NCBI GenBank assembly: GCA_021773355.1
Contig: JAJFKE010000038.1
Location: 186,001-250,000 of the forward strand
Length of the DNA: 64,000 nucleotides
Reading direction: 5' to 3'
Origin: Gammaproteobacteria bacterium
GTDB taxonomy: Bacteria > Pseudomonadota > Gammaproteobacteria > Pseudomonadales > Pseudohongiellaceae
In this document: one piece after another, positions 30,258 to 49,955 of the stretch
How the letters are laid out: every line of letters starts with the position of its first letter
Position numbering within the stretch: position 1 is the first letter of the stretch
Made by a program: the position numbers and the translations under genes
Notes under the pieces: model-generated
What the model saw: the letters and a program-made list of their open reading frames with translations, nothing else
Databases searched by the model: none
Told to the model about the DNA's origin: nothing

Positions 30258-33200
30258 ATGGACAATACAGGCGAATTTCAGAATCAAATATTTCGGCTCG
30301 TAGGTCGTCAAAATACTATTGCGAAGAAGCTCGATCTTATTGGGCCTTCAGCTCGATCAATGTACGTTGATGCATGCCGGCTGATAGAAATGGACACCAA
30401 TCTACAAAGCGAGGCATTGCTCGTCGGGCACTTGGTTAGAGAAATTGAGAGCACTATTCGCTCAGTTCTTATGCCAATAACCAATCAGAGAACACGCGAA
30501 GAAAATGCTCAAATAAAAGAGAAGCAACAAAAAACAATAGAATTTCTGAATGAAATTTCATTTCCTGAAGACCACCATGCTGCAAAAAATCTACTAAGGT
30601 CTATCGAAGATCCCGACTCGCATAAGAAAAATATCCGGGCAATAGTCTCTATTTTGGGTTTGGAAGAAGATGATCGAATTTGCGAACTTTGGCTGAATAT
30701 TCCTGCGATATTATATAAAAAAGCGCATAGGAGAGGCTTAGCCAAGCCGGAGAGAATTGATAATGATTTTGAGGAAAAATTCTGGAGTGACTTTGAGTTT
30801 GTACTTTTAGGAGTGCTAAACCAAATGGAGAAAATATATGTGAAATTTCCCGAAAAAGTAGATGAAATTAGAGAAAGCCCCTCCAAGGGCAATGCCTCTT
30901 TTGTAATACAAAACCTGCCGAATAATTTTATTATTCAGCGTCGATTTTTCGAAGGTAATTCTCATAAAGAATGGATACCGCTTTTGAAAACCAGCGCTAT
31001 CTTTACCCAACCACCTAGCGTTGAACCTCTTGATGACGAGGAATATATTAACCCTCCACACTGGCCCGCCATGGATTATTTGAAAGACATGGCTAGCATC
31101 GATGATAAGGACATTGAAGATAATATCGTTTCAGTTATTCAAGCTCTACCAGAGATAAATAATGTGCGGATTAGCGCAGACATTGTTGAAATTGCAATAA
31201 CTCTTCCTTTAGACAAATCATTGCTCTTAGAAGAAAAGGTCAAACAAGCTATATCTGATATGAGCGGAAGCATTTTTATGCGAGATTTCTCAGCATTGAT
31301 TAAGCATTGGATGCCTGCAGGTGAGAAGTCATTGGAGTTTGCAAATTGGTTATTCGATGTTGAGCCAAATGATGACTCGTCTGATACATACGAGAATCGG
31401 TTAAAAACGCGCTTTAGAGATTCAGATTACAAGGCAACAATCGACAAAAGTTCAGAATTCCTATTGGAGGGTGACTGTATTGGGACTTTGCAACTATTCT
31501 GCGAATTGTTGAATAAAGCAATGGACATAGAATGTAAGGGAGATTCAGAAAATGACTATTCTCATCACAGCCGCCCTGACATTAGTGAAAGCAATCGGAA
31601 CAGCACAGAATTAAGCGCATTAATTGACGTCGTAAGGGACTGCAGTGTTCGAATTGTAAGTAAAACACGGAAGCATTACTCAAATGTTTCTCAATTGTTA
31701 GAAGCGCATTCGTGGCGAGTTTTTAGGAGGCTTGAGATGCATCTATTGTCCTCCTATCCCAAGTTAGATTTTAAGAAATTGGAAGCCATACTTGTTAATC
31801 GTAAAAACTTTGATGACTCCATTCTATATTATGAGTATAAAAACTTGGCCAAGGCAGGTTTCGAATATTTGTCTGAAAACAACCAAAAGCAATTGCTTGC
31901 ATGGCTTGAAGAGCCTCCAGACCTAGAAGATGTAACTCAGTGGTATGAAGAGAACAAAGGACGTGCTCCCACAGATGCAGATTTAGAAAGAATAAGCGCA
32001 ATACGTTTTCGCGGCAATGCCTACGGTTGGGAAGACGCTTTACCTGCAGAACTTCAAAAGAAGTACAGTAAGATCGTTGAAAAATACGGGGAAGAAGAAC
32101 CCCCTAATAAAGTATCTTCTCTGAATCGCGGTCCGGATAGCCCCCAATCTACAGAAACTATTGAAGCGTGGACAACAAAGGAACTTATTCAATACCTGGA
32201 AACCTGGGAACCCGAAGAAGGCTTTTTCATGCCATCAATGGGAGGATTAGGTCGTGAGCTAAGGAGTGTCGTTTCAAGCAACGCTAGCAAGTTTTCAGAA
32301 ATAACAGATGAATTTAAGACTATACACCCGACGTATATTTGCAGCATTTTAGGAGGATTTGGAGAGGCACTAAAGCAAGAAATCGAGATCAATTGGCTGA
32401 AGATATTGGATCTTTGCTTGTTTGCAGCCGGACAATCAGATGAATCTCTTCCAAATATGCAGAATAGCTGGGACGCGGATGAGACATGGCGTTGGTGTAA
32501 ACATGAATCCTGCAGGCTTTTAAGTCTAGGATTCAATTCAGATACAAAGAATGCAATTCCAGAAAATTGTCGAGAATTAGCGTGGGAGCTTATAGAAAAA
32601 CTTCTTGAGGATGAAAGCCCATCTCCAGAAGAGGAGCAGCGGTCCTCTCACTCAGATAAAAAAGACTATTACGGACTGGCAATTAATAGCACCAGAGGTC
32701 AGGTTATTGAGATTATCGTACATTATTGTTTGAGACTAAAGGACGAAAATGAAGGGATATCGTTGGAAAGATTGCCAAGAGTTAAGAAAGCGCTTGAGCG
32801 TCATCTTGACCCAATCATCGAGCCATCTAAATCTGTCAAGGCTGTATATGGCCGTTTTTTCCCGTGGCTGAATCTGCTTGATAAAGATTGGGCATCTAAT
32901 AACAGAGATAAAATATTTCTCAGACCTCTTTCTCACGATCCTGCATGGCGCACTCTAATTGGTCGCTGCAAACCGTACTCCGATTGCTATGATGTTCTGA
33001 AAACTCTATACGAAGAGGCGTCTGAAGAACTAAATGATGCAGATGACAGTCTTGAGGACCCGTATTTCAAGTGTTTATGCCAACACATTGTTATGCATGC
33101 ACTCAGAAGTGAAGATGAGGATGGGTGTTTTGATAACCTACTTCAAAACTCTCCCGAAGAATATTTGACTAAGGCCACCAAGTTCATAGGTCAAGTGCTT

Positions 33201-33644
33201 ACCGATAATGTAGAACTCCCTGAAGAATGGAAGCAACGAATACAATCCTATTTTGGAGAAAGGATCGCGATTGCATCGCCGGAGGAGCTCTCATGTTTCG
33301 GCTGGTGGTTCCCTAACGATCATTTGGAGCCTTCGTGGATGCTCGCTAAGTTGCTAGAGATATTGGGGCAAACCAAGAAGATCGCCAATCAAGAGACAAT
33401 TATTGGGTACCTCTTATCTCAGGCAGCAAATCATACAAAAATTGTGCTTCACTGCCTTGAGAATGTGTTATTTGAAAACGATATAGACTACTGGGTCATA
33501 CAATATAAACATGATGATATTGCAGGAATCTTGGCAGTGGCATTGCATTCTGGAGATAACACATTGAAAAACAAGGCAATTGAAATCGTAAATACGTTGG
33601 TATCTAAAGGGCATGAGAACTACGAAGAATTATTACGTATTTAG
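30258..33644 (+). CDS. Large helical protein of unknown function (1128 aa)
   Basis: No enzymatic motif (no Walker A, HUH, PD-ExK or Cys/His cluster that I can defend) is seen. The protein is almost entirely helical with many Trp, Glu and Lys, no signal peptide and no TM helix, and reads as an alpha-solenoid. Residues about 640-900 hold repeated W-rich helices (ELIQYLETWEPEEGF; ADETWRWCKHESCRLLSLGF) and INSTRGQVIEIIVHYCLRL, a pattern also seen in C-terminal helical regions of large bacterial immunity proteins. The gene is low in GC, stands alone, and lies in an island next to mobility and RiPP genes. A single-gene defence role is an inference from context, not shown. Confidence 0.65.
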   Translation: MDNTGEFQNQIFRLVGRQNTIAKKLDLIGPSARSMYVDACRLIEMDTNLQSEALLVGHLVREIESTIRSVLMPITNQRTREENAQIKEKQQKTIEFLNEISFPEDHHAAKNLLRSIEDPDSHKKNIRAIVSILGLEEDDRICELWLNIPAILYKKAHRRGLAKPERIDNDFEEKFWSDFEFVLLGVLNQMEKIYVKFPEKVDEIRESPSKGNASFVIQNLPNNFIIQRRFFEGNSHKEWIPLLKTSAIFTQPPSVEPLDDEEYINPPHWPAMDYLKDMASIDDKDIEDNIVSVIQALPEINNVRISADIVEIAITLPLDKSLLLEEKVKQAISDMSGSIFMRDFSALIKHWMPAGEKSLEFANWLFDVEPNDDSSDTYENRLKTRFRDSDYKATIDKSSEFLLEGDCIGTLQLFCELLNKAMDIECKGDSENDYSHHSRPDISESNRNSTELSALIDVVRDCSVRIVSKTRKHYSNVSQLLEAHSWRVFRRLEMHLLSSYPKLDFKKLEAILVNRKNFDDSILYYEYKNLAKAGFEYLSENNQKQLLAWLEEPPDLEDVTQWYEENKGRAPTDADLERISAIRFRGNAYGWEDALPAELQKKYSKIVEKYGEEEPPNKVSSLNRGPDSPQSTETIEAWTTKELIQYLETWEPEEGFFMPSMGGLGRELRSVVSSNASKFSEITDEFKTIHPTYICSILGGFGEALKQEIEINWLKILDLCLFAAGQSDESLPNMQNSWDADETWRWCKHESCRLLSLGFNSDTKNAIPENCRELAWELIEKLLEDESPSPEEEQRSSHSDKKDYYGLAINSTRGQVIEIIVHYCLRLKDENEGISLERLPRVKKALERHLDPIIEPSKSVKAVYGRFFPWLNLLDKDWASNNRDKIFLRPLSHDPAWRTLIGRCKPYSDCYDVLKTLYEEASEELNDADDSLEDPYFKCLCQHIVMHALRSEDEDGCFDNLLQNSPEEYLTKATKFIGQVLTDNVELPEEWKQRIQSYFGERIAIASPEELSCFGWWFPNDHLEPSWMLAKLLEILGQTKKIANQETIIGYLLSQAANHTKIVLHCLENVLFENDIDYWVIQYKHDDIAGILAVALHSGDNTLKNKAIEIVNTLVSKGHENYEELLRI

Positions 33645-33890: not shown

Positions 33891-34196
33891 ATGCGACCAG
33901 TGATTTTTGATTACGCTACAGCACAACATGATGAGAATTGGACAAATGTTGAATACGACCATGATCTCGACTTGTGCAAAGTTAATGGCAAGACAATTCT
34001 CGAAAGCTCTCCCGAAATTATGTCTTGTGCGACCAAAACGGAAGTCAATAGAGAGTCCGATGATGCACAAGAAGTAGACCCTCTCTCTTTTGCGAGCAAA
34101 ACAAATGCTGGTAGAGAGTCTGATGATGTCTGTTACGACACCCACTTCATGTTGTTGACCAAAACCAAGGTTCAATTAGAAAGTGACGATGAATAA
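33891..34196 (+). CDS. Graspetide precursor peptide with three core repeats
   Basis: A 101-residue peptide with a leader (residues 1-47) and three copies of an 11-residue core: residues 48-58 TKTEVNRESDD, 69-79 SKTNAGRESDD, 90-100 TKTKVQLESDD. The repeats are exactly 21 residues apart. Consensus [TS]KTxxxxESDD puts hydroxyl/Lys donors before acidic acceptors, the layout used by graspetides, where an ATP-grasp ligase makes side-chain ester or amide rings. AAGGA lies eight bases before the ATG. The stop overlaps the start of the ligase gene. Between repeats are linkers with possible protease sites. I do not match it to a named graspetide group. Confidence 0.85.
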   Translation: MRPVIFDYATAQHDENWTNVEYDHDLDLCKVNGKTILESSPEIMSCATKTEVNRESDDAQEVDPLSFASKTNAGRESDDVCYDTHFMLLTKTKVQLESDDE

Positions 34197-35169
34197 GAAG
34201 GTATTGGTTATAACAAACAAGGAAGATGTGACAGTTGATTATGTGATTAAGGAACTCCAAAGGGAAGAAACACCCTATTACAGATTCAATACTGAAGATG
34301 TAGGTCATGGGACTGATATTTTTTTTGACGGTAGCGAGTATGGACTCGAAGATAAGATAAAAAATACCCATGTGTCATTTAGAGAGTTTGATTCCGTATA
34401 TTTTAGGAGGCCCAAATCGCCTAGATTGGGCGATGAATTAAGCCTCGGTGAGAGGCAATTTCTTCAGAATGAATTTGAAGTCTATTTTGAAGGTCTTTAT
34501 AGGAATTTGTCAGATAGATACTGGCTAAACTGGGTACTGGATATGCGACTACTTGAAAATAAGTTGTACCAGATTGAGCTTGCTAAAAAAATAGGATTTT
34601 TGGTTCCTCGGCTCTATATATCAAGCACACCTGGTAAGTCGCTGGAGTTCATAAACAGTATAGGCAAGACGATATTCAAACCATTGAAAATGGGATTCAT
34701 CAATGAACCAACCGACACGGGTAAAATCCTTTATACAACCAGAGTTGATGACAATTTTGTAAATTCTATAGAACGAAACGATGGAGTGCCTATATATCTA
34801 CAGCAGGAAATTGAAAAGGAATGTGATATTAGAGTAACCATTGTTGGAGATAATGTGTATACAGCTAAAATTTGGTCCCAAAAGTCCGATGAGAGTAAGA
34901 CCGACTGGAGAAAGTCGGAATCTATGCTTGAACACGAGAGCTGCAATTTACCAACTGATCTAGAAAAAAAGTGCAAAAGTTTGTGTAAAAAATTTAATTT
35001 GGACTTTTCTGCTATAGATTTTATTCTTGATAAAGAAGGACAATATTGGTTTTTGGAGATTAATTGTAATGGTCAATGGGCATGGCTTGAAACTCTTCTG
35101 GGATTTCCGATTAGTAAAGACATAGTAGAGATGTTGTCGAATGGAACTAGTGCCCAATGCGCAAATTAG
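34189..35169 (+). CDS. MvdD-like ATP-grasp ligase (graspetide macrocyclase)
   Basis: A 326-residue ATP-grasp enzyme. The N-terminal domain has VYFRRPKSPRLG, the motif typical of the MvdC/MvdD group; the ATP lysine region is TIFKPLKMGFI; ARG/metal residues include DIRVTIVGDNVYTAKI and FLEINCNGQWAW (Glu and Asn that hold magnesium). In microviridins and other graspetides this enzyme activates Asp/Glu side chains and joins them to Thr, Ser or Lys of the precursor. ATG 34189 overlaps the precursor stop by eight bases (a GTG two codons upstream is also open). The end overlaps the membrane-protein gene by 13 bases, giving a tight three-gene operon. Confidence 0.92.
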   Translation: MNKKVLVITNKEDVTVDYVIKELQREETPYYRFNTEDVGHGTDIFFDGSEYGLEDKIKNTHVSFREFDSVYFRRPKSPRLGDELSLGERQFLQNEFEVYFEGLYRNLSDRYWLNWVLDMRLLENKLYQIELAKKIGFLVPRLYISSTPGKSLEFINSIGKTIFKPLKMGFINEPTDTGKILYTTRVDDNFVNSIERNDGVPIYLQQEIEKECDIRVTIVGDNVYTAKIWSQKSDESKTDWRKSESMLEHESCNLPTDLEKKCKSLCKKFNLDFSAIDFILDKEGQYWFLEINCNGQWAWLETLLGFPISKDIVEMLSNGTSAQCAN

Positions 35170-35900: not shown

Positions 35901-36010
35901 TGGTAGCGGCGGTAGGACTTGAACCTACAACCCCCTTGCCCATATTATATAGACGCTGATCTTATAATATGTAGGAAACAAGGTGCTCTGTCCGATTGAG
36001 CTACGCCGCA
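35901..36010 (-). tRNA. tRNA-Arg(CCU)-like gene with a hairpin inserted in the anticodon loop
   Basis: On the minus strand: acceptor TGCGGCG/CGCCGCT (first pair T-T, six good pairs), TA, D-stem GCTC/GAGC with loop AATCGGACA (A14, GG18-19, A20, A21), anticodon stem CCTTG(T)/(G)CAAGG, variable GGGTT, T-arm GTAGG-TTCAAGT-CCTAC, A73 and encoded CCA. The anticodon loop holds about 31 extra bases, CATATTATA...TATAATATG, which form a perfect 9-bp stem with a 13-base loop. Without it the loop reads TTCCTAG, anticodon CCU, with A37. A20, C35 and U36 are arginine identity bases. An alternative reading without the T-G pair gives UCC. It lies between the graspetide operon and a minus-strand gene starting nearby. 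Confidence 0.6.
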
Positions 36011-36018
36011 TAAATTGT

Positions 36019-36675
36019 TTAAGCTTCTATCTCGCAATCCTCGGCACCGATGTCAACAGCTCTGGTCGCAATCGAGCGTACCAATTGCTTTGGAATTGCT
36101 GAAGGCGAATCAGACACGATTTTCTTAATCACTGCATAGGGGTTTAAAATAAGAACGTGCTCAAATTCACCAGAATCCCCTTCGGCTGCGTGAATAAACC
36201 CAAACTCAACAAGCGAGCGCATGCGGCCTTTCCATACCGTTGACTTACGTTCACCCGAAAAACCGGATTCTGAAGCAAATGCTTCTTGCGCTTGAATTCT
36301 TAAATAGCTTGAATCAAAAACCCTACACCAAAGCGCTAAGTAAGCAGATGATGCAGGCTTTCCTTTAGTTAGGGCATCTATAATAGCCATTACATGAGGC
36401 ATGGTTCGCGGTATCGTGGTGAAACCATCGTTCGAATTTCTGTTCCATAAATCATCTTCACTAATGTCTGGCCACAACTTTTCTCTAAGCTCGGCTTCCC
36501 GTTCGGCTTTTTTCTTCCTTTTGGGCTTTGCTGCTTTCTTTAAAGCACGTGCAATCTCAGGAGAGAGTTTTGGAGCTACTGTGGATGGCGGTGGCGCCTT
36601 TTTTGTCGCCGGATCAGTTATAGGTTTGTCAGTTACCGCCTTTTTACTCTTAGTTTTCGTCTTCGTTTTGGTCAT
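36019..36675 (-). CDS. Winged-helix protein of plasmid/ICE replication type
   Basis: A 218-residue protein. The first 70 residues are Lys/Pro/Ala-rich and disordered; the rest (DGFTTIPRTMPHVMAIIDAL..., SSAYLALWCRVFDSSY, then ERKSTVWKGRMRSLVEFGFIH) has the pattern of a winged-helix domain like those of plasmid replication-control proteins. Proteins with this core occur in proteobacterial plasmids and integrative elements next to RadC and relaxase genes, as here. An iteron-like array lies upstream. A replication or stability role is inferred. The ribosome-binding site GGAAGA precedes ATG 36675. Confidence 0.65.
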   Translation of the reverse strand: MTKTKTKTKSKKAVTDKPITDPATKKAPPPSTVAPKLSPEIARALKKAAKPKRKKKAEREAELREKLWPDISEDDLWNRNSNDGFTTIPRTMPHVMAIIDALTKGKPASSAYLALWCRVFDSSYLRIQAQEAFASESGFSGERKSTVWKGRMRSLVEFGFIHAAEGDSGEFEHVLILNPYAVIKKIVSDSPSAIPKQLVRSIATRAVDIGAEDCEIEA

Positions 36676-37084: not shown

Positions 37085-37525
37085 ATGTCAGAACAAGCAA
37101 CTATCGACCAAGCTCTATCCATCCTAGAATCTCGCCTTAATCAACCCCAAGAGTATTTTACCAAGTCCCGAGATACTCAGGCTTATCTAACAATAAAATT
37201 CAATGGGCTGGAACATGAGTCCTTCCGTGTGATGTTTTTAGACAATCAACACGGACTTATCGAACTAAAGGAAATGTTCCGCGGTACAATCGATGGGGCG
37301 GCTGTCTATCCGCGCGAAGTAGTTAAAGCCGCACTACAATTCAACGCCGCAGCTGTCATTTTTGCGCACAACCACCCTTCGGGAGTAAATGAGCCCAGCA
37401 TGGCTGACAAGCACATTACTAAGCGCCTTGTTGATGCATTGCAAACAATCGATATAAGGGTTTTAGATCACATCGTAATTGGTGGGAATAAAGCTTATTC
37501 CTTCGCAGAGCATGGCTTACTTTGA
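37085..37525 (+). CDS. radC: RadC-family JAB-domain protein (short, element type)
   Basis: A 146-residue protein made up almost wholly of the RadC/JAB1 metalloprotease-like domain. The metal motif is FAHNHPSGVNEPSMADKHIT (HxHPSG and Asp). It lacks the N-terminal helix-hairpin-helix of chromosomal RadC (about 225 residues). Short RadC proteins are typical of integrative elements and plasmids; their activity is unsettled. Its stop is 14 bases from the stop of the convergent resolvase gene. Confidence 0.9.
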   Translation: MSEQATIDQALSILESRLNQPQEYFTKSRDTQAYLTIKFNGLEHESFRVMFLDNQHGLIELKEMFRGTIDGAAVYPREVVKAALQFNAAAVIFAHNHPSGVNEPSMADKHITKRLVDALQTIDIRVLDHIVIGGNKAYSFAEHGLL

Positions 37526-37539
37526 ACAGGGGTTTTACC

Positions 37540-38112
37540 CTACTCACCTAAAGCGCGTTTGATTGTATTGGGAGAGACCTCAAAGGCGCGGGCAATGGCT
37601 GACATTGATAAGCAGTTGTCTTGTCGCATACTGCGAGCTGTGGCGATATTGGCGTCACTGAGCTTAGGAGGACGGCCAAAGCGAACACCCACGGCTCTAC
37701 GCGCTGCCATCCCGCCTTTAGTACGTTCTCCACAAATTGCGCTTTCATGTTCAGCCAGGGCAGCAAAGATTGTAAAAGTGAGTTTGCCGCCAGCCGTTGT
37801 TATATCAAGATTCTGGGTCAAGGAGTGGAGCTGGATATTGCGCTCTTCGAATTTCTTGAGAAGCAATAGTAATTCCAGCGTATCGCGCCCCAATCGATCT
37901 AGCTTGTGAACCACCAAAGTATCACCATCGCATAGAACTTTTAGTGCTTGTTTTAGTCCCTTACGCTGGAAGGTTTTACCCGACATTCCGAAGTCGTGAA
38001 AGACCTCTTCACAACCTGCTTTTGCCAGTGCAGTAAGCTGCATATCCAAATGTTGATCAGTCGTTGAAACCCGTGCGTAGCCTAACTTTCGGCTTGCCGA
38101 CTCTTCGGTCAT
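37540..38112 (-). CDS. Resolvase/invertase-type serine recombinase
   Basis: A 190-residue small serine recombinase. Catalytic serine in YARVSTTDQHLDMQ, conserved KLDRLGRDTLELL, and a C-terminal helix-turn-helix (SMSAIARAFEVSPNTIKRAL) for DNA binding. ATG 38112 follows GGAGGA closely; the longer upstream reading is not needed. It likely resolves dimers or inverts DNA within the element. A hairpin CCCTTG-caa-CAAGGG lies at its start region. Confidence 0.92.
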   Translation of the reverse strand: MTEESASRKLGYARVSTTDQHLDMQLTALAKAGCEEVFHDFGMSGKTFQRKGLKQALKVLCDGDTLVVHKLDRLGRDTLELLLLLKKFEERNIQLHSLTQNLDITTAGGKLTFTIFAALAEHESAICGERTKGGMAARRAVGVRFGRPPKLSDANIATARSMRQDNCLSMSAIARAFEVSPNTIKRALGE

Positions 38113-38265
38113 GCTGTCCTCCATCCCTTGCAACAAGGGAACCTTTTTTGCTCCCTCTCATTTTGCACCTCGCACCAGCCTTGGTTTACACCTAAGGCTT
38201 TCTTTAATAACGAATATTTTCTTGCCATATTTTGATACCCTGAAGACTCTCATAATGGTTCCTTT

Positions 38266-38604
38266 TTGAAGCTAGCGCGATGCGTTGCCTTTGGCTTTAC
38301 CTGCTTGATTTCTAGCACGATTTATCCACAGGAGGGTGATAGCGAAGGATTCAAGAATAGGGATTTTCTGTTACTTGAAGACGAACAAGTAAAGTATTGG
38401 CTCACTGGTGCAATTGAGGCTCTGTATCACGTGGCTGCCGCTAAAAGTGAAGAAAAGGGGCAATGTGTATTCGATTGGTACTATACGGATACTCCACAGA
38501 AGAACGGCATTATTCTGGGTAGCATAGAGAAATACCCAAACTCTACCCCTAGTGCTGTTTTATTGGCTCTAACTGAGTTGGAATGCGGTACATATAGGAA
38601 GTAG
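38266..38604 (+). CDS. Small secreted protein (Rap1a/Tai-like pattern)
   Basis: A 112-residue protein with a signal peptide (residues 1-20, cleavage near STIYPQ). The start is TTG 38266. The mature part has two Cys (KGQCVFDW and ELECGTY) that may form a disulfide, and the order of a helix, Cys, helix recalls the Rap1a/Tai immunity fold. That fold assignment is weak. It is alone on the plus strand, between resolvase and relaxase modules, and converges with the coiled-coil gene, with the two stops directly adjacent. Confidence 0.5.
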   Translation: MKLARCVAFGFTCLISSTIYPQEGDSEGFKNRDFLLLEDEQVKYWLTGAIEALYHVAAAKSEEKGQCVFDWYYTDTPQKNGIILGSIEKYPNSTPSAVLLALTELECGTYRK

Positions 38605-39333
38605 CTATAGATTAAGTTCGGGCAATTTTGCGGTAGGCGTCGCGCTCACTTCAAGGCTGGAGTGAACCTCTTGAGAATTTCTAACGCTTGTCTCAATCGC
38701 ATTTACTTCCTCACTAATTTCAAGCATGCGTTCAGAAGAAACCGGATTATCCTCGTCTTCCATTTCATTGCGAAGTTTACTTAGGTGATCTCCATGCGAA
38801 TTCATGCGCTCATGGGACAGTCTAGCTTCTTCTAATTCGGCCAGTTGTCCTTGATAGGTTTCCCAAGAAGGGGAGCCTTCGCGCCACGAAATATCATCTA
38901 ACTCACTATCCTCTACAACGCGCTCATCAAATGTAAAAACGGAGCCATTCTCCGCCTGAAATACTTCTGTACCGTCAGTCAAAGCGCTAGCAGCGTCCAA
39001 TGATCCCCGTACAGCAGATTGCGCCTCGCTTACCCACTCGGCAGATCTGATCTGAGCTGCGTAAACAGCATCCTCAGCATCATTGAGATTTTGCATCAGG
39101 GCTTGATATTGCGCCGCATAGCGAGTGTTTAATCTAAGGGCTTGTGAAAGAGATTGCTTCGTGCGCTTTTGAACACTTTGTTCGTGCTCATCTTTGTCCT
39201 TCAAACCACGATTGATGCGGCGGCCGGTGTCGAAATTCCCAGCGAGGGCATTATTGTGATCCTCGCGCTCTTGTACCAGTCGCCTAGTAGCTTTGGATTT
39301 TTCAACCCTTAGAAATTCCTCATCGATTCCCAC
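38605..39333 (-). CDS. Coiled-coil protein downstream of the relaxase
   Basis: A 242-residue, highly charged helical protein starting at GTG 39333. Long coiled-coil regions (residues about 40-110 and 160-220) with many Glu, Gln and Ala; no TM, no known domain. It follows mobC and mobA on the same strand, 84 bases after the relaxase stop, so it is probably a mobilization accessory protein. Confidence 0.6.
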   Translation of the reverse strand: MGIDEEFLRVEKSKATRRLVQEREDHNNALAGNFDTGRRINRGLKDKDEHEQSVQKRTKQSLSQALRLNTRYAAQYQALMQNLNDAEDAVYAAQIRSAEWVSEAQSAVRGSLDAASALTDGTEVFQAENGSVFTFDERVVEDSELDDISWREGSPSWETYQGQLAELEEARLSHERMNSHGDHLSKLRNEMEDEDNPVSSERMLEISEEVNAIETSVRNSQEVHSSLEVSATPTAKLPELNL

Positions 39334-39417
39334 GGCACACCTTCTTTCTGCACATCATTATACCTGTGTAATTATTAAGAATTGGCTAACAAATATTGGC
39401 TAGCGCTTTTATTGAGC

Positions 39418-40704
39418 CTACATATTCAAGCTGGGAGTGGGTTCTTGCCTTACTGCGGCTTGCTCTTGAAACTGGCTTTTTAGCTGCTGGGTATTCTCAG
39501 CAGCTTTGGGTGAGTAGACTGACTCCTTAATCTGAGTAATGTCTTGTTTTTGTTGTTGCTCGATCTGGCGAATACTTTGTTGCAAAGGCTGGCGCTCATT
39601 TAGTTGTTGTTGAGTGAGTTTGTCTTGTTCGATTTGATCTCGGTTGTAACTTTGGTTTGCCTCAACCTCATTTTGGTGAACAATGGCTTTTTGCTTGCCC
39701 GTAATACGCTGCCATAGGCCACGCATGCCCGTATACAGCCTGTCTTGCCTCTCACGTGTTTCGCTCTGATTGCGCTCTTCTTGCTTCCGATAGAGGGTTT
39801 CTCGCATTGTGCTATGTTGTGCCTGCATGTGTGTCTTGCGCCTTAGAAGAGGCGCAAGCTTGCGCTCATAATATTGATTGGATTTACGAACAAATTCATC
39901 TGTGCGTTGTGAAAGTGAGCGGTCAATATTAGCCTTAGTTTCCTTTGCCGAAGGTAAATTGTCATGATCCCCGAGCCGCTCTTTTAAAGCCTTAGTTTTA
40001 ACACCCATCCACTTGCTAAGAGAATAGACCTCTCCTTGATAATCAACCGCGACATAGCCACGTCTATCTCCCTTGGCGAGCTGGTAGCCACGTTCTTTGA
40101 GAGCATTCTGAAAAGCCGCCTTACTGTCCGATTGCTGCCAACATTGCTGCAACCCTACTTTAATCATGCGCGGATCAGTGCCCTGACGTTTAGCTTGCTG
40201 CCATTCAGCCAGATCAAAATTTAGCGGATTGCGCAGCTCTTTCTCGACAAAGCCTTGTGGCATCTTCCAGCCGTTTTCCAGATAGAGTTCCTTAGCAATG
40301 TCCATGAGGCGGTTTTTATAGTAATCCTGCCTCAGAGCCTTCATTTCCTGTCCGTCAATGCGACTCCAAGTGACATGTGCATGACGACGACCTTCCTTTT
40401 CATGAAATACCATGACACGTGGTTGACCCTCTAGTCCTAGATTTGCCTCAATACGGTTTGCAGCGTCCTCAAAGGTAGGGGTATTAACCTTTTCGCCCTC
40501 AGGCGGGTTCAGACTTACTGAAAATAGATATTTCTGACATTGCGTCCCTTTAGACATTGCATAGGCTTCATTCAAGGCACCGTGCACTGTCTCTGACATA
40601 AAGCCAGATACTTCGTGTACGCTCACATGTTCGTTATCACGTGAATTTAGCAAGTGGTCTGCAAGTTGACGGCCGCCGCCACGCTGACTCGCCTTGATAA
40701 TCAT
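39418..40704 (-). CDS. mobA: Relaxase MobA (MOBP-like)
   Basis: A 428-residue relaxase. The N-terminal 110 residues have the three relaxase motifs: MIIKASQRGGGRQLADHLLNS, a catalytic region around YLFSVSLNPPEGE, and the HUH-type metal triad in RRHAHVTWSRID. The remainder is long helices and coiled coil rich in Gln. It would nick oriT and lead the strand into the host's channel through the VirD4-like protein. The start overlaps the mobC stop (ATGA). Confidence 0.9.
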   Translation of the reverse strand: MIIKASQRGGGRQLADHLLNSRDNEHVSVHEVSGFMSETVHGALNEAYAMSKGTQCQKYLFSVSLNPPEGEKVNTPTFEDAANRIEANLGLEGQPRVMVFHEKEGRRHAHVTWSRIDGQEMKALRQDYYKNRLMDIAKELYLENGWKMPQGFVEKELRNPLNFDLAEWQQAKRQGTDPRMIKVGLQQCWQQSDSKAAFQNALKERGYQLAKGDRRGYVAVDYQGEVYSLSKWMGVKTKALKERLGDHDNLPSAKETKANIDRSLSQRTDEFVRKSNQYYERKLAPLLRRKTHMQAQHSTMRETLYRKQEERNQSETRERQDRLYTGMRGLWQRITGKQKAIVHQNEVEANQSYNRDQIEQDKLTQQQLNERQPLQQSIRQIEQQQKQDITQIKESVYSPKAAENTQQLKSQFQEQAAVRQEPTPSLNM

Positions 40705-41093
40705 GAGCGCTCACAAATCCCCAGCGCTCGCATTAGCAAATCCCGAATTTCCCGAAAATCCGCACAAGCTTCGAGCAGTGCCAGCCGCGCACCTTCATCA
40801 AAAACCAGCGATCCGCTGTTAACTGCCTTGGCCAACTGGTTAAGATTGCTCCCAGCTCGTGTGCTCCCCAAAGCACTTAGCACCTCTCCAAGCGCTTTCT
40901 GATCTACCACCGGATTTCGTCCTCGCGTCCGCCGAAGTGACCGGTCCGCTCCAAATAACTGATGCCGCACATACTCCCCATTCGATAGCCCAGCCGAAAG
41001 CGCCCATTTTGTAAGCAGCGCCCGCTCGTTATCGCTAAGGCGCATACAAAATGGGGAGCGTGGAGTTATTGGTGGATTTCGATCTTGCGACAT
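40701..41093 (-). CDS. mobC: Mobilization protein MobC
   Basis: A 130-residue protein with the MobC pattern: N-terminal ribbon-helix-helix (RLSDNERALLTKWALSAGL) and the conserved LSALGSTRAGSNLNQLAKAVNSG region. It melts and binds oriT for the relaxase. It overlaps mobA by four bases. AAAGGAG before the ATG lies within a small hairpin. Confidence 0.9.
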   Translation of the reverse strand: MSQDRNPPITPRSPFCMRLSDNERALLTKWALSAGLSNGEYVRHQLFGADRSLRRTRGRNPVVDQKALGEVLSALGSTRAGSNLNQLAKAVNSGSLVFDEGARLALLEACADFREIRDLLMRALGICERS

Positions 41094-41160
41094 TGCAGCT
41101 CCTTTACAGGGAGCCTACACTTCTATCCTGAGGATTCTGGGAAACATCGGTAATCTAGGG
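41094..41160. other. Candidate oriT with a nic-like site
   Basis: Directly upstream of mobC, CTATCCTG at 41123-41130 fits the YATCCTG nic core of RP4-type (MOBP) transfer origins. It lies within the inverted repeat ATCCT-G-AGGAT, and a second repeat GCTCC...GGAGC is at about 41098-41114. Position and motif agree with MobA/MobC. Confidence 0.5.
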
Positions 41161-41524
41161 CTGGAGCACGTAATCTGTTTGCTTTTCCAACCTATAGCCC
41201 TTAGTAATAGTAGTTAAACTATTATCACCAATTTCAATCGCAATTCCTCGGCGGCCTCGTATGTTATAGACCTTTCACACTTTAAAAGCGGACATTCACC
41301 GATTTGAGGCTACCGACCGAGATGTGCCAATTGCAGTCATAAGGCTGGTGATGTTTTTGCCTCCCGCAAGCGGACGCTAGAACGATAAACACACTATTCC
41401 AACGAACTCTTAAATTGTCACGCAATTCCAATAATGGCTATATTTGCCTATTTGCAATAGGACATAATGTCCTCTATAATTCAATTGTATGATTTTTGGG
41501 GGCCAGCAGGATCGTGAGGTTGAA

Positions 41525-42301
41525 ATGAATAAAGCTGAATTTAATAATTACTTAAAAGAACTTGGACTAACCCAAGTTGAAGCAGCAATGCTACTTTCAG
41601 TTTCCTCTCGTACTGTGCGACGTTGGGCAGAGAATCCCGAAGAGATACCAGGACCTGTGGAACAAGCTCTGTGTGCATGGTTAAACTTACATCATCTAGG
41701 TTTATCTTGGCGGCCCGACAGTGTGTCTTTTATTACCGAAGATGCTGAACAAATAGCTCTACATCGCCGACATACTATTGATCTAGATAGCTTGTTGCAG
41801 AAAGTTAAAGATAGAGGGGGGCCAGCCGCACCCTGGGAAGTAGATTTAGAGCGTAATTGTGCAACTTTAGGTCCTTTACACGTATCTTTTTATAGTTTGA
41901 AAAGCGGTAGTTTTTCTCCAAGCTTTTATCATCGTTCAGATGATATACCGCACGACATAGATAGAGACTGGCAATTGATTGAAGATGCTTTTGCATGTAT
42001 TGCCAATGCTATTAGCACCTATAAATACCGCATATATCACGCTAATGACAAAGCACTATTCCCTCTAACCAAAGAACAAGTTAAACATGAATACCAAAAT
42101 CTTGACACTGCATTGCATCTTTTCTCAAAAGATAAAAAGTTATCTTATGATACGAAAGTAGTTGACGAAGGCGTAATAATTTCTCTAGGAAAATTTAATT
42201 CTCAGCAAAAAGCAGATGAGTTTGTTGAACAGTTTCAGAAATGGTTAAAGGAGAAGTCGTCTTCTGGATTTTTCCCTGCCGTTCAGAAGGTAGAGGCTTG
42301 A
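41525..42301 (+). CDS. HTH transcriptional regulator-like protein
   Basis: A 258-residue protein. The N-terminal helix-turn-helix is clear (YLKELGLTQVEAAMLLSVSSRTVRRWAEN). The remaining 190 residues are unknown, with a mixed alpha/beta pattern and several aromatic residues. ATG 41525 follows GAGGTTGA; an in-frame ATG at 41489 is less likely. The 365 bases upstream (41161-41524) hold no gene. Its stop abuts the last attC of the cassette array, into which it runs convergently. Confidence 0.75.
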   Translation: MNKAEFNNYLKELGLTQVEAAMLLSVSSRTVRRWAENPEEIPGPVEQALCAWLNLHHLGLSWRPDSVSFITEDAEQIALHRRHTIDLDSLLQKVKDRGGPAAPWEVDLERNCATLGPLHVSFYSLKSGSFSPSFYHRSDDIPHDIDRDWQLIEDAFACIANAISTYKYRIYHANDKALFPLTKEQVKHEYQNLDTALHLFSKDKKLSYDTKVVDEGVIISLGKFNSQQKADEFVEQFQKWLKEKSSSGFFPAVQKVEA

Positions 42302-42350
42302 ATAATGGGCAGGATGATAGCTCTGTCCTTGATTGATTTAATTGTTAGGT
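42292..42350 (-). repeat. attC site 6 (left end of the array, degenerate)
   Basis: Minus strand: R'' ACCTAAC (42344-42350), then AATTAAATCAATCAAGGACAG, and the partner half CCTGCCCATTATTCAAG. The spacer arms match the other attC sites, but the R' core is not GTTRRRY here, so the site is truncated or mutated where the HTH gene ends. Confidence 0.65.
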
Positions 42351-42384
42351 AGCTACTCTCGCACATAAGGGCCCAGTATTATTG

Positions 42385-42551
42385 TCATTTCTGGGAGATC
42401 AAATTTCTGTGAATCCACGCTAAACGATAGTGCTCGATAGCCAAGTCGATATCACCAGCCCTTAAGTATGTATCAGTTAAACACTCGGTTATAAAAGCAG
42501 ATGTTGGGTAATTCTCTTCAGCCCATTCTGATAAGCGGTATTTGTAGCCCT
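42385..42551 (-). pseudogene. C-terminal fragment of a TPR-like cassette gene
   Basis: On the minus strand a frame reads KYRLSEWAEENYPTSAFITE, then LTDTYLRAGDIDLAIEHYRLAW, and stops at TGA (42385-42387). It has the heptad-like pattern of one TPR repeat, but no start: a TAG lies just upstream. It overlaps the end of the 150-residue ORF in another frame. Probably the surviving 3' end of a cassette gene. Confidence 0.5.
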
Positions 42552-42970
42552 AATCCGTCGGCAATGATTACAGTTCCAAGAATAATTGCTGCCAGTGTAA
42601 TACCTGTAGCAGTGCGATAAACCCAATTCTTGAGGTGGTCCCAGGTATTCGCCCAATCAGTCTGTTTGCGATTATTGGATAGGTCGATGTAGCGTCTAAC
42701 AACATCTCGATAATTTACTCTTAAGTTATCTAATCTATTAATGTAGTGATCATTGCTTTTGAGCAAATTGGTGATTCGCTCCGGAATATATTTAGATTGC
42801 TTTAAAGGTTCAAATTCGCCCGACTCAATCTTTTCAGAAACAATGCGCGTAGCAAGGTCAATGAGCTCATGGAGATTTTGATCAAATTTGTCTTCAGTAG
42901 TCGGGGTCCAGTGTCCATGCAGAGTAACTATTTCGGGCCACTTGTCTTTCAGAGATTTCACATCATTCAT
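42518..42970 (-). CDS. Cassette gene: membrane-anchored hypothetical protein
   Basis: A 150-residue protein: a helical N-terminal region (residues 1-110) with DRRYIDLSN-like charged helices and a C-terminal membrane helix (TGITLAAIILGTVIIADGL). It begins 2 bases from attC 5 in the cassette direction. The last residues may be an artefact, since a TPR-like relic in another frame overlaps its end. The family is not recognised. Confidence 0.55.
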   Translation of the reverse strand: MNDVKSLKDKWPEIVTLHGHWTPTTEDKFDQNLHELIDLATRIVSEKIESGEFEPLKQSKYIPERITNLLKSNDHYINRLDNLRVNYRDVVRRYIDLSNNRKQTDWANTWDHLKNWVYRTATGITLAAIILGTVIIADGLGLQIPLIRMG

Positions 42971-42971
42971 T

Positions 42972-43034
42972 GTTTAATACCGTGTTTTATAGGAGGCAGC
43001 GAAGCTGCTTTTCTTTTTGATTTGTTTGTTATGT
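42972..43034 (-). repeat. attC site 5
   Basis: Minus strand: ACATAAC (43028-43034), then AAACAAATCAAAAAGAAAAG, a short CAGC/GCTG stem, and GTATTAAAC at the other end (R' close to GTTAAAC, first bases changed). 63 bases. The stop codon of the 254-residue ORF lies within the R'' core, a common feature of cassettes. Confidence 0.7.
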
Positions 43035-43793
43035 GCCGACCCGACGCCTTGCGTCCTCCAAGAGCCCTTCGTAATCTTCAGGGTGCATATCAAAATTTTG
43101 GTACGCATTAACAATTTCATCGTAGGTAGGCATTGATGGATCAAATTTATCCATTCCTCTAGCAAACGGATAGAGTTTACTAACTAGTGCGTGTAATAGT
43201 GCCAAATCGTAAAGATAATTCAGAGCATTACCCAGAGTGGGAATCGTTTCGCTGTCAGGTGTGAACATTTCTGAGAATCCCGTGATCCTTGCTTTTTGAA
43301 TCTGTAATCTCATAAGTATAAATGCGAGTCTATCCCCAACGTCAGGCTCCGCATATTTGATACAATTTGAAAATATCTCTTTGTAATCTGTTGGTGTATC
43401 AGGAGGTGTATTCTCCAATGGAGTCTTAAGTTGGTTTCCTTCACCTTGCACTCTAGGCCAAGCTTCAACTAGCAGCCTTGAGCAAAATCTAAAATAGAGA
43501 ATCAACTCGCTCAATGCTTCTGGCAAGAATGCCTTAGCAGCAACAAATTCACGGTCACGCTGCTTGTTAGCGCTATATTTTGAAATGTTCAAAGCAATAA
43601 TGCTCGACGTAAATGCCAACATCCCAACATTCAAACCCTGCCAACTATTCCACGTTTTTTGAACATGTATCCAGTCGCCATTAAACCAAGGCGTAACAAA
43701 CATGAATATTACATATGCAAAAATAACTGGAATAGCAATCCAATTTGTGAACCTAATTAGGGTATCAGGTTTTAGTCCTCCGAAATGTGTCAA
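43029..43793 (-). CDS. Cassette gene: two-TM hypothetical protein
   Basis: A 254-residue protein starting at TTG 43793 (AGGAA eight bases upstream). Two N-terminal membrane helices (residues about 12-36 and 50-70) are followed by a helical cytoplasmic domain of 180 residues. No family is recognised. The stop TAA is part of attC 5, and the start lies 63 bases from the remaining half of the attC disrupted by the IS110 element. Confidence 0.65.
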   Translation of the reverse strand: MTHFGGLKPDTLIRFTNWIAIPVIFAYVIFMFVTPWFNGDWIHVQKTWNSWQGLNVGMLAFTSSIIALNISKYSANKQRDREFVAAKAFLPEALSELILYFRFCSRLLVEAWPRVQGEGNQLKTPLENTPPDTPTDYKEIFSNCIKYAEPDVGDRLAFILMRLQIQKARITGFSEMFTPDSETIPTLGNALNYLYDLALLHALVSKLYPFARGMDKFDPSMPTYDEIVNAYQNFDMHPEDYEGLLEDARRRVGT

Positions 43794-43856
43794 TTAAATT
43801 TCCTGTTTTCAGTTGCGGCCGTCTTACATATCAATGGGCTAGAACACTACAGTACA

Positions 43857-43867
43857 CATAACGCCCT
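43857..43867 (-). repeat. attC site 3, left part (split by IS110 element)
   Basis: CATAACGCCCT is the R' end of an attC (GTTATG on the minus strand). The rest of the same site is at 46265-46317. Removing the insertion restores a 62-base attC whose arms match the neighbouring sites. Confidence 0.8.
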
Positions 43868-43924
43868 TGTATGGTTGTTCTAGTGCCTTGTTTGAGTTTT
43901 TCTTTCTTTATCCTAAGCGGGTAA

Positions 43925-44085
43925 ATTGGGGCCCACCTTCAGTAGCAGCCGAAGGCCTATCTGCAGCAGCTTGTTAACGCCCAGGTTCGAAAACCGGTAT
44001 TCAGTGTAAGCGTTGCAGATCTCTATTAGGCACAACTCGAATAGTCATGAGGGCCCCGAGCCCGTATAGCAAGGCAGAGGTAGCT
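43925..44085 (+). ncRNA. Candidate bridge RNA of the IS110 element
   Basis: Three stem-loops are visible in the non-coding left end. (1) CCTTC...GAAGG (43936-43955). (2) Target loop: stem CTGCA/TGCAG plus GCTT/AAGC, apical hairpin GGTT-CGAA-AACC, and in the internal loop TAACGCCC (43975-43982) and TATTCAG (43998-44004). (3) Donor loop: apical GGGC-CCCGA-GCCC, flanked by ATAGTCA (44041-44047) and GTATAGCAAG (44064-44073). The first target guide equals the attC sequence left of the insertion, the second is the complement of the sequence to its right; ATAGTCA equals the right end of the element. This matches the design known from IS621. Confidence 0.82.
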
Positions 44086-44088
44086 TAA

Positions 44089-45123
<1,035 letters not shown>

Positions 45124-45130
<7 letters not shown>

Positions 45131-45933
45131 CAGCTCGGCAGCGACGCCGGGCTGTAGACCATCTCAAGAGTCGTCGTGTTAGTGAGCGCCGGGCTTGTCG
45201 TGTGATTGGGTTCAGCCGATCCGCTGCCTGGTATCAGCCCAAGGGGCGTAATGATGAGCCACTTAGATCAAAGCTGAAACGTTTAGCGGAATGTTACCCA
45301 CGCTATGGGTGTCCGACTCTGCATGTCATGCTCAAGACAGAAGGCAAAGTTATCAACCATAAGCGTACTTACCGGATCTACCGGGAAGAGAGGCTTCAGG
45401 TACGCACCAAGACACGTAAGAAGCTAATCCGTCCCAGAGTGCCTATGTTGGTTCCGGAGAGTATTAATCAACGCTGGTCGATGGATTTTGTGTCTGACCA
45501 GTTGGCCAATGGGAGGAGGTTTCGCGTGTTAAATATCGTGGATGATTTTTCGCGGGAGTCTGTATTGCAGCTGGCTGAGTTTTCGATCTCTGGCCAACGA
45601 GTAGCCCGGGAACTCGATCAGCTCTCCAGAAAATTACCCAAGGTGATTGTTTGTGACAATGGCCCCGAATTTACCAGCAAAGCCATGTTCTTTTGGTCTA
45701 AGCACACTGGAGTGAAGCTACATTTCATTCAACCTGGAAAGCCAACCCAGAATGCGTTCGTAGAAAGTTTCAATGGAAAATTTCGAGACTATTGTTTGAA
45801 TCTAAATTGGTTCGCCAGTTTGGAGGATGCCAAAAAAGTGATTGAGAACTGGAGGTCACACTACAACAATGTACGGCCACATCGATCATTGGGCAGAAAA
45901 CCGCCTGCTGTATTTGCCAGAGAGGCTGCATGA
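45124..45933 (+). CDS. IS3-family transposase OrfB (integrase core)
   Basis: A 269-residue retroviral-type integrase. The N-terminal part is a helical HTH_21-like region ([19 protein letters not shown]); the DDE residues fall in [10 protein letters not shown] (first Asp), [12 protein letters not shown] (second Asp) and [13 protein letters not shown] (Glu). Full length for the IS407 group. The start is GTG 45124 within the end of orfA. Confidence 0.94.
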
Positions 45934-46264
45934 TAAACTTAAATTCCCACATCAGACATGGCTCTGATCATGGGGTACGGTCACTCCTATGAACAAAGAC
46001 AGCGGGAAGTTTCAGGGCAAGCGAATTATTCGAGGGGGTCGTCACAAAGTGCGAACAGTTCTGTTCGTTTCGATCATGTCAGCAATCCAATGTCATCCAA
46101 CGCTGAAACCGATGTATCAGCGCATGGTAGCAGCTGGAAAACCAAAGAAGGTAGCGATGGTGGCTTGTATGCGAAAGCAATTAACGATATTGAATGCGAT
46201 GGTGAAGACAGAGACTCATTGGCAAGAATAAACTGCTTAAAAAACTTGATTTAAACCATAGTCA

Positions 46265-46317
46265 CTGAATAATGGGCTCGGCGCTAGCCGAGTCCTTAAT
46301 TGATTTGTTTGTTATGC
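46265..46317 (-). repeat. attC site 3, right part
   Basis: Minus strand: GCATAAC (46311-46317), AAACAAATCAATTAAGGACT, the CGGC/GCCG stem around CTAG, then CCCATTATTC and the core CAG at the junction. It continues at 43857-43867 on the far side of the IS110 element. The stop TAA of the 178-residue ORF directly precedes it. Confidence 0.85.
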
Positions 46318-46854
46318 TTACTCTTCTCTGATTTCTGAGATTGAGAGTTCGCACGACTTGAGTGTTAATTCCAACCTTTCTTTCTGTAGTAATGAAAGAT
46401 GAGTGTAAAAATTCATATCAATTGCTAGACGTTGTATGACCGCTAAACAATTTAGTATGTGTTCGGGGAAGCCACTAATCTCGATTGCCCATGATCCTGG
46501 ATTATAGTGCTCAAACTTGTTTCTGAACTCGTTTTGAATTACTCGTATAGATTCACTTTCTTCTGCAGATAGTTTTAAGACATCTCTACCGCCAAATGGC
46601 TTTTCGCATCTCTTTAGTGCTTCTCCAAAAGAAATAAGCTTTTTATGACCCTTTTTAGTTTCAACTATGACACTCAGGTCGTCAGTGCCTTTCGCCACCT
46701 GAATCGCATAGCTATAAAGGGCGCTAAAACAACAAATAACTACCCATTTCCATTCTTCTGGGTGATGCTTCGCTCTTTCCAGAAAGTGGCTTAGTTTTTC
46801 CACGTTATCTAGAGCATTGCTTTCTGTATCGAATCGGGCCCATCTTTCAGTCAC
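46318..46854 (-). CDS. Cassette gene: HEPN-like protein
   Basis: A 178-residue, all-helical soluble protein starting at GTG 46854. RNEFRNKFEHY holds an R-x4-H motif (RNKFEH) like that of HEPN domains, which are often ribonucleases in toxin and defence systems. The rest shows EEWKWVVICCFSALYSYAIQ and no other motif. It is one gene-cassette between attC 2 and attC 3. Activity cannot be judged from the motif alone. Confidence 0.6.
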   Translation of the reverse strand: MTERWARFDTESNALDNVEKLSHFLERAKHHPEEWKWVVICCFSALYSYAIQVAKGTDDLSVIVETKKGHKKLISFGEALKRCEKPFGGRDVLKLSAEESESIRVIQNEFRNKFEHYNPGSWAIEISGFPEHILNCLAVIQRLAIDMNFYTHLSLLQKERLELTLKSCELSISEIREE

Positions 46855-46870
46855 GTAGAAATCTCTGGAC

Positions 46871-46931
46871 GCATAACGCCCTTGATAATGGGTGCGCCTT
46901 GGCGCATCCCTAATTGGTTTGATTGTTAGAT
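46871..46931 (-). repeat. attC site 2
   Basis: Minus strand: R'' ATCTAAC (46925-46931), ATCAAACCAATTAGGGATGC, stem GGATGCGCC/GGCGCACCC, and R' GTTATGC (46871-46877). 61 bases; both core sites fit RYYYAAC/GTTRRRY closely. The stop of the protease gene lies inside it. Confidence 0.9.
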
Positions 46932-47689
46932 TGCCGCATCACAGTATTTTCAATTTCTGTTAATAATGACTTTATGGGGCAAGCGGTGATTACTTTTATT
47001 TGCCGAAACCACCCACTTTGCACTCCAATAATATGATAGCGCCAGTCTCCATCCACTTTCTTTAAAGAAAAGATAGGGCCACCACTCATGCCATCTATAT
47101 CACTAATATTGCCCATCTCGGAAATTTTCGCATAAAACTTGTTAACCGATTCAAGCCCCTCAGGTGCATCAGTTTGTTCAAGTGGGAGAACCGCGAATCG
47201 GGCCGTTATTTGTGTAGTCTGATCATATTCTACCGATTCAGAAGGTATCCCTAATAAAGCCCAGTAGTCGTGATCTTGGATATAATCGCCCCAGCTATCT
47301 TCATAGATCGGTTCTGCCCCTCCTTTTTCAAGAAGATTTGTATAGTATTCCGAGAGTGGAACTACAGCATAGTCAAGACCAATACTTTCGTCTTCAAGTA
47401 CTAGCCATTCTTCAATATTGAATTCATACGGTATTGGAATAGCTATCTCAGTTTTTCCTGCTGTTTGATCGTCAAGGCGCCAAACATCAAATGTAGCACC
47501 GGCGTCGGTTGCCATTTTAATGTCGCGGAGAATATGTCCAGCAGTAACTAGGAACCAAGTATCGAGAATGCAAACAACATACCCAGAAAATATATGAGCT
47601 ATTTCTTTACCATCTACAGATTGCACGCAAGACAAGCTTACAAAGTGTTTACCTGCTGATTGTACAAATGCATCGGTCAAATTTTGCAC
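46910..47689 (-). CDS. Cassette gene: trypsin-like serine protease
   Basis: A 259-residue chymotrypsin-fold protease from GTG 47689. Catalytic His in FLVTAGHILRD, Asp in SIGLDYAVVPL, Ser in DIDGMSGGPIFSL. No signal peptide is clear, so it is likely cytoplasmic, as are trypsin-like domains in bacterial conflict systems. The C-terminal residues SNNQTN are read from the attC, showing that the cassette boundary cuts into the ORF. Confidence 0.85.
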   Translation of the reverse strand: MQNLTDAFVQSAGKHFVSLSCVQSVDGKEIAHIFSGYVVCILDTWFLVTAGHILRDIKMATDAGATFDVWRLDDQTAGKTEIAIPIPYEFNIEEWLVLEDESIGLDYAVVPLSEYYTNLLEKGGAEPIYEDSWGDYIQDHDYWALLGIPSESVEYDQTTQITARFAVLPLEQTDAPEGLESVNKFYAKISEMGNISDIDGMSGGPIFSLKKVDGDWRYHIIGVQSGWFRQIKVITACPIKSLLTEIENTVMRQSNNQTN

Positions 47690-47705
47690 AATGGCTAACT
47701 CCCCA

Positions 47706-47766
47706 ATCTAACGCTCTGAATAATGGGTGCCGCTTGCGGCATCCTTAATTGATTTATTGGTTAGTG
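47706..47766 (-). repeat. attC site 1 (right end of the array)
   Basis: Minus strand: CACTAAC (47760-47766), CAATAAATCAATTAAGGATG, stem GATGCCGC-AA-GCGGCACC, CATTATTCAGAGC, and R' GTTAGAT (47706-47712). 61 bases. No gene ends here on the upstream side: the next one (48003) is 237 bases away, so a cassette has been lost or the array begins here. Confidence 0.88.
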
Positions 47767-49953: not shown

Positions 49954-49955
49954 GC

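Follow-up and report, generated by a model that had tools for sequence, protein, structure and literature searches.

Transfer RNA folds are used outside decoding by tRNA-like mimics such as the 3′ tRNA-like structures of viruses and the tRNA-like fold of the yjdF riboswitch, and the RNA family described here would share this use of the fold, but unlike those mimics it is a separate plasmid-borne element with arginine identity bases and a hairpin in its anticodon loop. With the tRNA introns of archaea and eukaryotes the insert of the family has in common its position (37/38), its short length and its structure, but it differs from them in the lack of a bulge-helix-bulge on inspection and of a detectable RtcB in 15 of 18 carrier genomes. 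Group I introns of bacterial tRNA genes likewise interrupt the anticodon loop, and the sections of PMC4390854 drawn on here describe the tRNA introns of bacteria as self-splicing; in contrast, the present insert of 27-35 nt is not catalytic, being far too small for self-splicing, and Rfam sees a tRNA and no intron family. The non-coding RNA of AbiF (RF03085), an antitoxin according to the sections of PMC12373285 drawn on here, resembles the family as a structured RNA in mobile defence settings, and in one locus (L146) a gene related to the winged-helix partner that usually accompanies the family is followed by an Abi_2-like gene; the family RNA differs in having a tRNA fold, and RF03085 was not matched at gathering score in the loci scanned. 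A search of open-access full-text literature by titles and abstract beginnings, with subscription papers mostly outside its scope, gave no description of such RNAs, nor are they mentioned in the consulted part of a review of non-canonical tRNAs (PMC7609411).

The window, that is, the whole stretch of 64,000 nt analysed here, carries one such RNA on its minus strand, read from 36010 to 35901. The original prediction of a tRNA-Arg(CCU)-like gene with a hairpin in the anticodon loop, which named no strand, proved correct: the Rfam tRNA model RF00005 matched positions 35904-36010 of the minus strand with 50.0 bits (cut-off 29), and the family model R2, of which the window RNA is one of 19 training sequences, gave 109.8 bits. 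The features of the locus are as follows.

35901..36010, minus strand: tRNA-Arg-like RNA from acceptor to encoded CCA (Rfam RF00005, family model R2 and sequence)
35941..35971, minus strand: 31-nt insert between positions 37 and 38, with 35971-35963 pairing with 35949-35941 in a 9-bp stem under a 13-nt top (sequence)
35973..35975, minus strand: positions 34-36, CCU if the insert is placed between 37 and 38 (sequence)
35991..35991, minus strand: A20, the chief bacterial arginine determinant (A20 in 27/27 readable family rows)
36019..36675, minus strand: gene for a 218-aa protein, on the strand of the RNA and ending 8 nt upstream of it, without a Pfam family, with relatives on small plasmids
37085-37525: RadC gene (context, outside the module)
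37540..38136, minus strand: resolvase-like gene, by eye (context, outside the module)
39418-40704: relaxase gene (context, outside the module)
40701-41093: NikA/MobC-like gene (context, outside the module)

Read 5′ to 3′ from 36010, the window RNA is composed of a 7-bp acceptor stem, a D-arm (GCTC/GAGC), A20, an anticodon stem (CCTTGT/GCAAGG) of 6 bp, one above canonical, the anticodon-loop strand TTCCTA followed by the insert and then by G38, a T-arm and the 3′ end A-CCA (A73, with CCA encoded). The insert is a perfect stem, CATATTATA/TATAATATG, with its top, and the folding energy of the strand, -38 kcal/mol, was equalled by only one of 200 shuffles. The T-T first acceptor pair, pointed out earlier as a weakness, is real, and a standard first pair is absent from 5 of 28 aligned family members. 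Because of the extra stem pair the anticodon of the window copy can also be read one base earlier, so that its triplet frame is a matter of choice; ARAGORN missed the RNA at default settings and called it His when introns were allowed.

The homologue check proposed along with the original prediction brought to 30 the number of RNAs that share this anatomy, in which a stem-loop of 27-35 nt interrupts a tRNA cloverleaf after position 37 and before position 38. They come from genome contigs, from one viral contig and from plasmids, the family being spread on islands and plasmids in Proteobacteria, and 28 of them were aligned (alignment A8, mean pairwise identity 66%; L293 and L294 are counted in the 30 and absent from the alignment). 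When plasmids were searched by BLAST with a 161-nt query, three records could be aligned across the insert (query coverage 70-75%, identity 73-77%, E-values from 6e-12 to 2e-5), from Spongiibacter (L051), Methylocaldum (L052) and Methylobacter (L053, with two tandem copies), and the five RNAs of the window, L051, L052 and L053 made up the first covariance model, after which later scans extended the family. A pattern scan of genome contigs yielded 13 members from 59 loci, the other 46, L088 and L090 among them, being rejected; four further plasmids were added by further scans, and pRm1132f (L285) and one Bradyrhizobium plasmid (L286) are also carriers. In the class of the window 3 of 369 genomes contain the RNA, its own included, one of these being L108 and L076 thus the new one; 385 sampled alphaproteobacterial genomes gave L152, and L248 is the member on a viral contig. 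Among 398 genomes sampled across the phylum, L292 was the only carrier besides that of the window, two more pattern matches being ordinary tRNAs, while two more carriers (L293 and L294) were found among 248 genomes of the family of L292. Within the genus of the window the full element was found only in its own genome (BLAST, 84 genomes). Since the exact patterns, and the scoring of nine candidates per genome in the 385-genome sample, miss copies, these frequencies are lower bounds. None of 29 matching phage records covers 80% of the RNA, and a protein-based scan of genome contigs found nothing.

Excluded before counting were L075 (identical with L108), a second Bradyrhizobium record (H169), L278 and the weaker relatives L141 (65 bits), L153 (73 bits) and L291 (66 bits), of which L141 and L153 have no Arg triplet; by adding these last three, C35 would be found in at most 31/33 instead of 30/30. 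Two weak members, L285 (75.2 bits) and L286 (62.9 bits, with an altered D-stem), were retained because they matched over the RNA and lie behind the winged-helix gene. For viral stretches (n=109), inspection of the matches of L180-L259, L136-L140 and L260-L284 gave L248 as a member and L278 as a borderline case; 15 viral pattern loci were not members, being ordinary-length tRNAs or of low score, and 5 others were likewise not members. The borderline relative on the viral contig L278 (7341-7463) scored 75.9 bits with R2 and has a longer insert and, by eye, a UCU-like loop. A UCU-like loop was also seen in L291 (G599), which sits behind a gene with a DGQHR motif.

As a test of the common structure, we examined base-pair changes in the 28 aligned RNAs. 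Two-sided changes were found at all 9 pairs of the insert helix (87.8% of cells paired), at all 6 pairs of the anticodon stem and, G-U pairs included, at 24 of the 31 pairs of all helices, counts which are inflated by relatedness in an alignment fitted to a model of the same structure. Pairing reached 95.3% of cells against 78.7% in shuffles, none of 500 shuffles attaining the observed score, and fell to 38-51% when the 3′ side was slid by 1-3 columns. The Levitt pair 15-48, which lies outside the model, is A-U in 13, G-C in 13 and A-C in 2 RNAs, and is thus standard in 26/28 (Fisher p 2.8e-6 for covariation, kinship ignored); G18, U54, U55, C56 and A58 are present in 28/28 and G19 in 27/28. 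A tRNA match was obtained in Rfam for 29 of the 30 copies, with none for L286. The cloverleaf and these tertiary pairs are those of a predicted tRNA L-fold.

The window copy is not a tRNA wrecked by recombination or by a random insertion, as had been suggested: the existence of 30 such RNAs with one anatomy and covarying helices refutes this. A related proposal, that the element acts at the DNA level as an attachment or replication site, or is a decaying tRNA captured by a mobile element, is in keeping with its location on plasmids and islands and with the presence of related resolvase genes close to 5 of 18 loci, but covariation of RNA type, with G-U pairs and the 15-48 tertiary pair, largely refutes it, and we regard it as very improbable. 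In addition, pRm1132f is a rolling-circle plasmid in the sections of PMC10194956 drawn on here, so that the module it carries is cargo and not its replicon; a role as replication module was rejected for this carrier.

The determinants of bacterial ArgRS listed in the consulted part of PMC9976931 are A20, C35 and U/G36, and also A/G73, U73, G2-C71 and C3-G70. In the family, A20 is present in all 27 readable rows of 28, C35 in 28/28, and position 36 is occupied by U (24 rows) or G (4 rows), in support of the arginine reading of A20, C35 and U36 first made for the window copy. Around these bases position 34 takes all four bases (U22 C3 G2 A1), and positions 16, 17 and 20a are variable; G2 is paired with C or U in 26/28, and C3-G70 is present in 26/28. 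In the host of the window, a comparison of 26 tRNAs, none of them for Leu or Ser, showed A20 in 4/4 tRNA-Arg and in 0/22 others. The triplets at 34-36 are UCU in 20, CCU in 3, UCG in 2, GCG in 1 and ACG in 1, all Arg (27/28), the remaining one being GCU (Ser); L293 and L294 have UCG. For the 14 of 28 rows in which one nucleotide and a 5-bp stem precede the loop, the triplet at 34-36 is for Arg in 14/14. ARAGORN with introns allowed named 13/28 as Arg and 14/28 as other amino acids, with no call for 1/28; the family is easily overlooked, as a standard tRNA finder misses it or gives such mixed names.

The features for decoding are kept less well. The discriminator is free (C15 U7 A4 G2), with C73 (15/28) not among the listed bacterial Arg discriminators; position 33 is U in 23/28 and G in 5/28; CCA is encoded in 17/28; and an extra anticodon-stem pair is present in 14/28. 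An elongator is expected to have a 7-nt loop, a 5-bp stem and U33, whereas the window copy, judged with its hairpin unspliced, has a 31-nt hairpin and a 6-bp stem. Ordinary tRNA-Arg genes for UCU, CCU, UCG and ACG are present in the host of the window, so its copy is not needed for decoding. Taken at the level of sequence, the family keeps the ArgRS determinants A20, C35 and U/G36 and hence an apparent arginine identity, but not the features of decoding, as indicated by G33, the GCU triplet, the free discriminator, the partial CCA and the hairpin; the identity bases may in part be inherited from a tRNA-Arg ancestor. The reading that we favour, to which we give slightly less than an even chance, is a mobile, conserved, tRNA-Arg-derived RNA family that would retain its hairpin and serve as a non-decoding mimic of tRNA-Arg, read by ArgRS or by another protein that binds tRNA-Arg.

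An intron-bearing tRNA, one of the possibilities raised in the original prediction, would instead have a short non-self-splicing intron at 37/38, whose removal would require an unknown nuclease and an unknown ligase and would yield a tRNA-Arg fit for decoding. The insert does align at the canonical 37/38, the exons joined in silico give a normal-looking tRNA of 77-79 nt, and the Arg triplet is found in 27/28. However, no Rfam intron family matched at any of the 30 RNAs (in L053 a fragment of group II type is located some 2 kb from the RNA), and RtcB was found in only 3 of the 18 carrier genomes, a survey in which completeness is known for 6 (all 98-100%; 0/6 with RtcB) and hosts known from plasmid records alone are not included; it was not found in the window's own genome, which is 98% complete. 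The foot of one helix is, by inspection, a 6-nt by 1-nt internal loop and not a bulge-helix-bulge, and G33, the GCU triplet, the free N73 and the extra stem pair do not suit a decoding product. Six loci have the winged-helix gene but lack the RNA (L146-L149, L296 and L297), and none of them showed an uninterrupted sister copy close to that gene. The intron is thus weakened, though possible, and splicing of the insert appears unlikely, with roughly one chance in six for the intron reading as a whole.

Directly upstream of the RNA a gene for a winged-helix protein was identified in 22 of the 30 copies, by an HMM built from 14 of those loci that had been grouped beforehand by all-against-all BLAST. 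Its stop codon lies 3-32 nt before the RNA, except that the two overlap slightly in L076 and, with a broken gene, in L294; L285 has a split gene, and in L053 the second RNA copy stands directly behind the first. HTH_36 and DnaD_N of Pfam were matched above cut-off in 7/7 proteins scanned, the protein resembles N-terminal parts of phage replication proteins, and the best PDB matches of its structure model (pLDDT 67.7) are DnaD N-domains (E 1.3e-4 and 7e-4). By Pfam match and modelled fold, the usual partner is predicted to be a DnaD-N-like winged-helix protein.

In the window this place is occupied by the 218-aa gene, whose protein matched 0 Pfam families and was not retrieved by the winged-helix HMM (hhalign against that family: probability 4.6%, E 0.0087, 63 columns), and whose single-sequence structure model has a pLDDT of 40.5; its relatives are found in 165 small-plasmid records, with the RNA in 0/5 of those fetched. 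Yet another small protein gene stands upstream in L142, the RNA starting 8 nt after it, and only a remnant of the upstream gene is left in L101; the gene upstream in L086 is, by eye, MerR-like. In L083, L292 and L293 the RNA is located, without a winged-helix gene, directly before a gene that we take, from its protein sequence by eye, to be nrdJ, an arrangement that is apparently a fixed chromosomal version; in L292 the RNA is preceded, at a distance of 9 nt, by the end of a 37-codon ORF. An antisense action of the hairpin top on the upstream region was rejected: its longest complement within 1000 nt upstream was on average 6.1, against 6.2 in shuffles (28 RNAs), and the lowest p-values, 0.01 and 0.095, are unremarkable among 28.

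This linkage bears on the proposal that the RNA is a processing or stability element of mRNA, in which a site for RNase P and for RNase Z/CCA processing shapes the 3′ end of the upstream message and the arginine features are leftover. The short distance to the winged-helix gene, the spacing of 8 nt behind other genes in the window and L142, and the terminator-like hairpins that follow the RNA in L051, L052 and L285 (by eye) all suit such an element. It would need neither A20, C35 and U/G36 nor the anticodon hairpin, all of which are conserved, and three copies precede nrdJ without a winged-helix gene; we consider it unlikely, on a par with the intron. The favoured tRNA-Arg mimic has to face the same irregularities, as the differing upstream genes of the window and L142 and the absence of the winged-helix gene before nrdJ also count against it, as do C73 in 15/28 and the missing Arg triplet of the diverged relatives L141 and L153. 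For such a mimic we propose that the RNA would be transcribed as the 3′ portion of the message of a small gene upstream, usually the one for the DnaD-N-like protein, and would probably be released by RNase P and by processing at its 3′ end. With the hairpin retained, it would keep the L-shape and the arginine determinants while being barred from decoding on the ribosome, and it might then be bound and possibly charged by ArgRS, or be recognized by a different reader of tRNA-Arg, and act as decoy, sensor or regulator to the benefit of plasmids and islands.

The RadC, resolvase-like, relaxase and NikA/MobC-like genes upstream of the window copy mark, by their predicted products, a mobilizable element, for which a tRNA-Leu at 17435 could be an attachment site. 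A 556-aa ORF at 50906-52576 is tyrosine-integrase-like by eye, and the element was taken as 37085-52576. Relatives of the upstream proteins are also found on plasmids with RNAI (L058, L146 and L149); on one of these, the E. coli plasmid L058, positions 978-1111 gave an Rfam match to the sRNA sraL with 84.7 bits.

Colicin D is specific for tRNA-Arg, and the RNA might be a decoy or shield against anticodon nucleases of this kind, colicin-D-like toxins or HEPN defence RNases, which it would bind while not being cut productively. This decoy, which was among the original suggestions, comes close to the favoured non-decoding mimic, and is consistent with the Arg anticodon region being kept beside a blocking helix in plasmid settings, with Abi-type genes near some copies (an Abi family gene in L053, AbiTii in L143 and a HEPN motif in L086) and with the many tRNA genes of viral contigs that carry other anticodon-arm inserts. 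Among the winged-helix relatives without the RNA, an Abi_2/PD-T4-5-like gene stands next in L146, again as a decoy would suggest, and a truncated HEPN-like gene is found in L147 (by eye). Against it, no nuclease gene common to the loci was found, a narrow HEPN motif matching in only 1 of 23 fetched loci, and we rate a nuclease decoy as improbable, at about one chance in eight. In L146 (3016-4272) and L147 (3953-4843) the winged-helix gene is followed by a gap of about 95 nt and then by the Abi_2/PD-T4-5-like gene, truncated in L147, an arrangement that resembles AbiF and is possibly an RNA-containing defence cassette.

If the favoured mimic is correct, bacteria and plasmids keep a tRNA-derived RNA family for a non-decoding use, which would offer a testable handle on the non-translational roles of tRNA identity. 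Either an unknown bacterial route splices short tRNA introns or mobile elements exploit the recognition of tRNA-Arg by ArgRS, and within the scope of our literature search each of the two outcomes would be new. The family, a tRNA-like RNA by its predicted fold, may with fair probability represent a regulatory system of a categorically new kind. The specific form of a new mobile regulatory or addiction RNA, an arginylated and ribosome-blocked mimic that derives from the 3′ end of the winged-helix message, taps the host's level of ArgRS or Arg-tRNA and controls a plasmid or defence module, is a doubtful proposal, to which we give somewhat under one chance in three.

Several tRNA genes with other inserts, and further genes near the window copy, were noted in passing. 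Anticodon-arm inserts occur in tRNA genes of the viral contigs L182, L183, L184, L199, L205, L217, L264, L265, L274 and others; L182 and L217 have several insert-bearing copies per contig, those scanned scoring as tRNA in Rfam, and at least one recurrent viral insert family is found in L184, L186, L191, L202, L206, L262, L266 and L272. Genes of tRNA-Arg-like type with unrelated anticodon-arm inserts are present in genomes of Falkowbacteria and Phycisphaerales (L088 and L090). In the window itself, residues 197-1119 of a 1128-aa protein encoded at 30258-33644 match PADLOC Dsr1 (6.9e-46), with no Pfam match, and a possible graspetide (omega-ester peptide) cluster lies at 33891-35169, where an ORF of 101 aa that resembles a precursor and, by eye, has RESDD-type motifs in repeats precedes a gene for an MvdD/RimK ATP-grasp protein.
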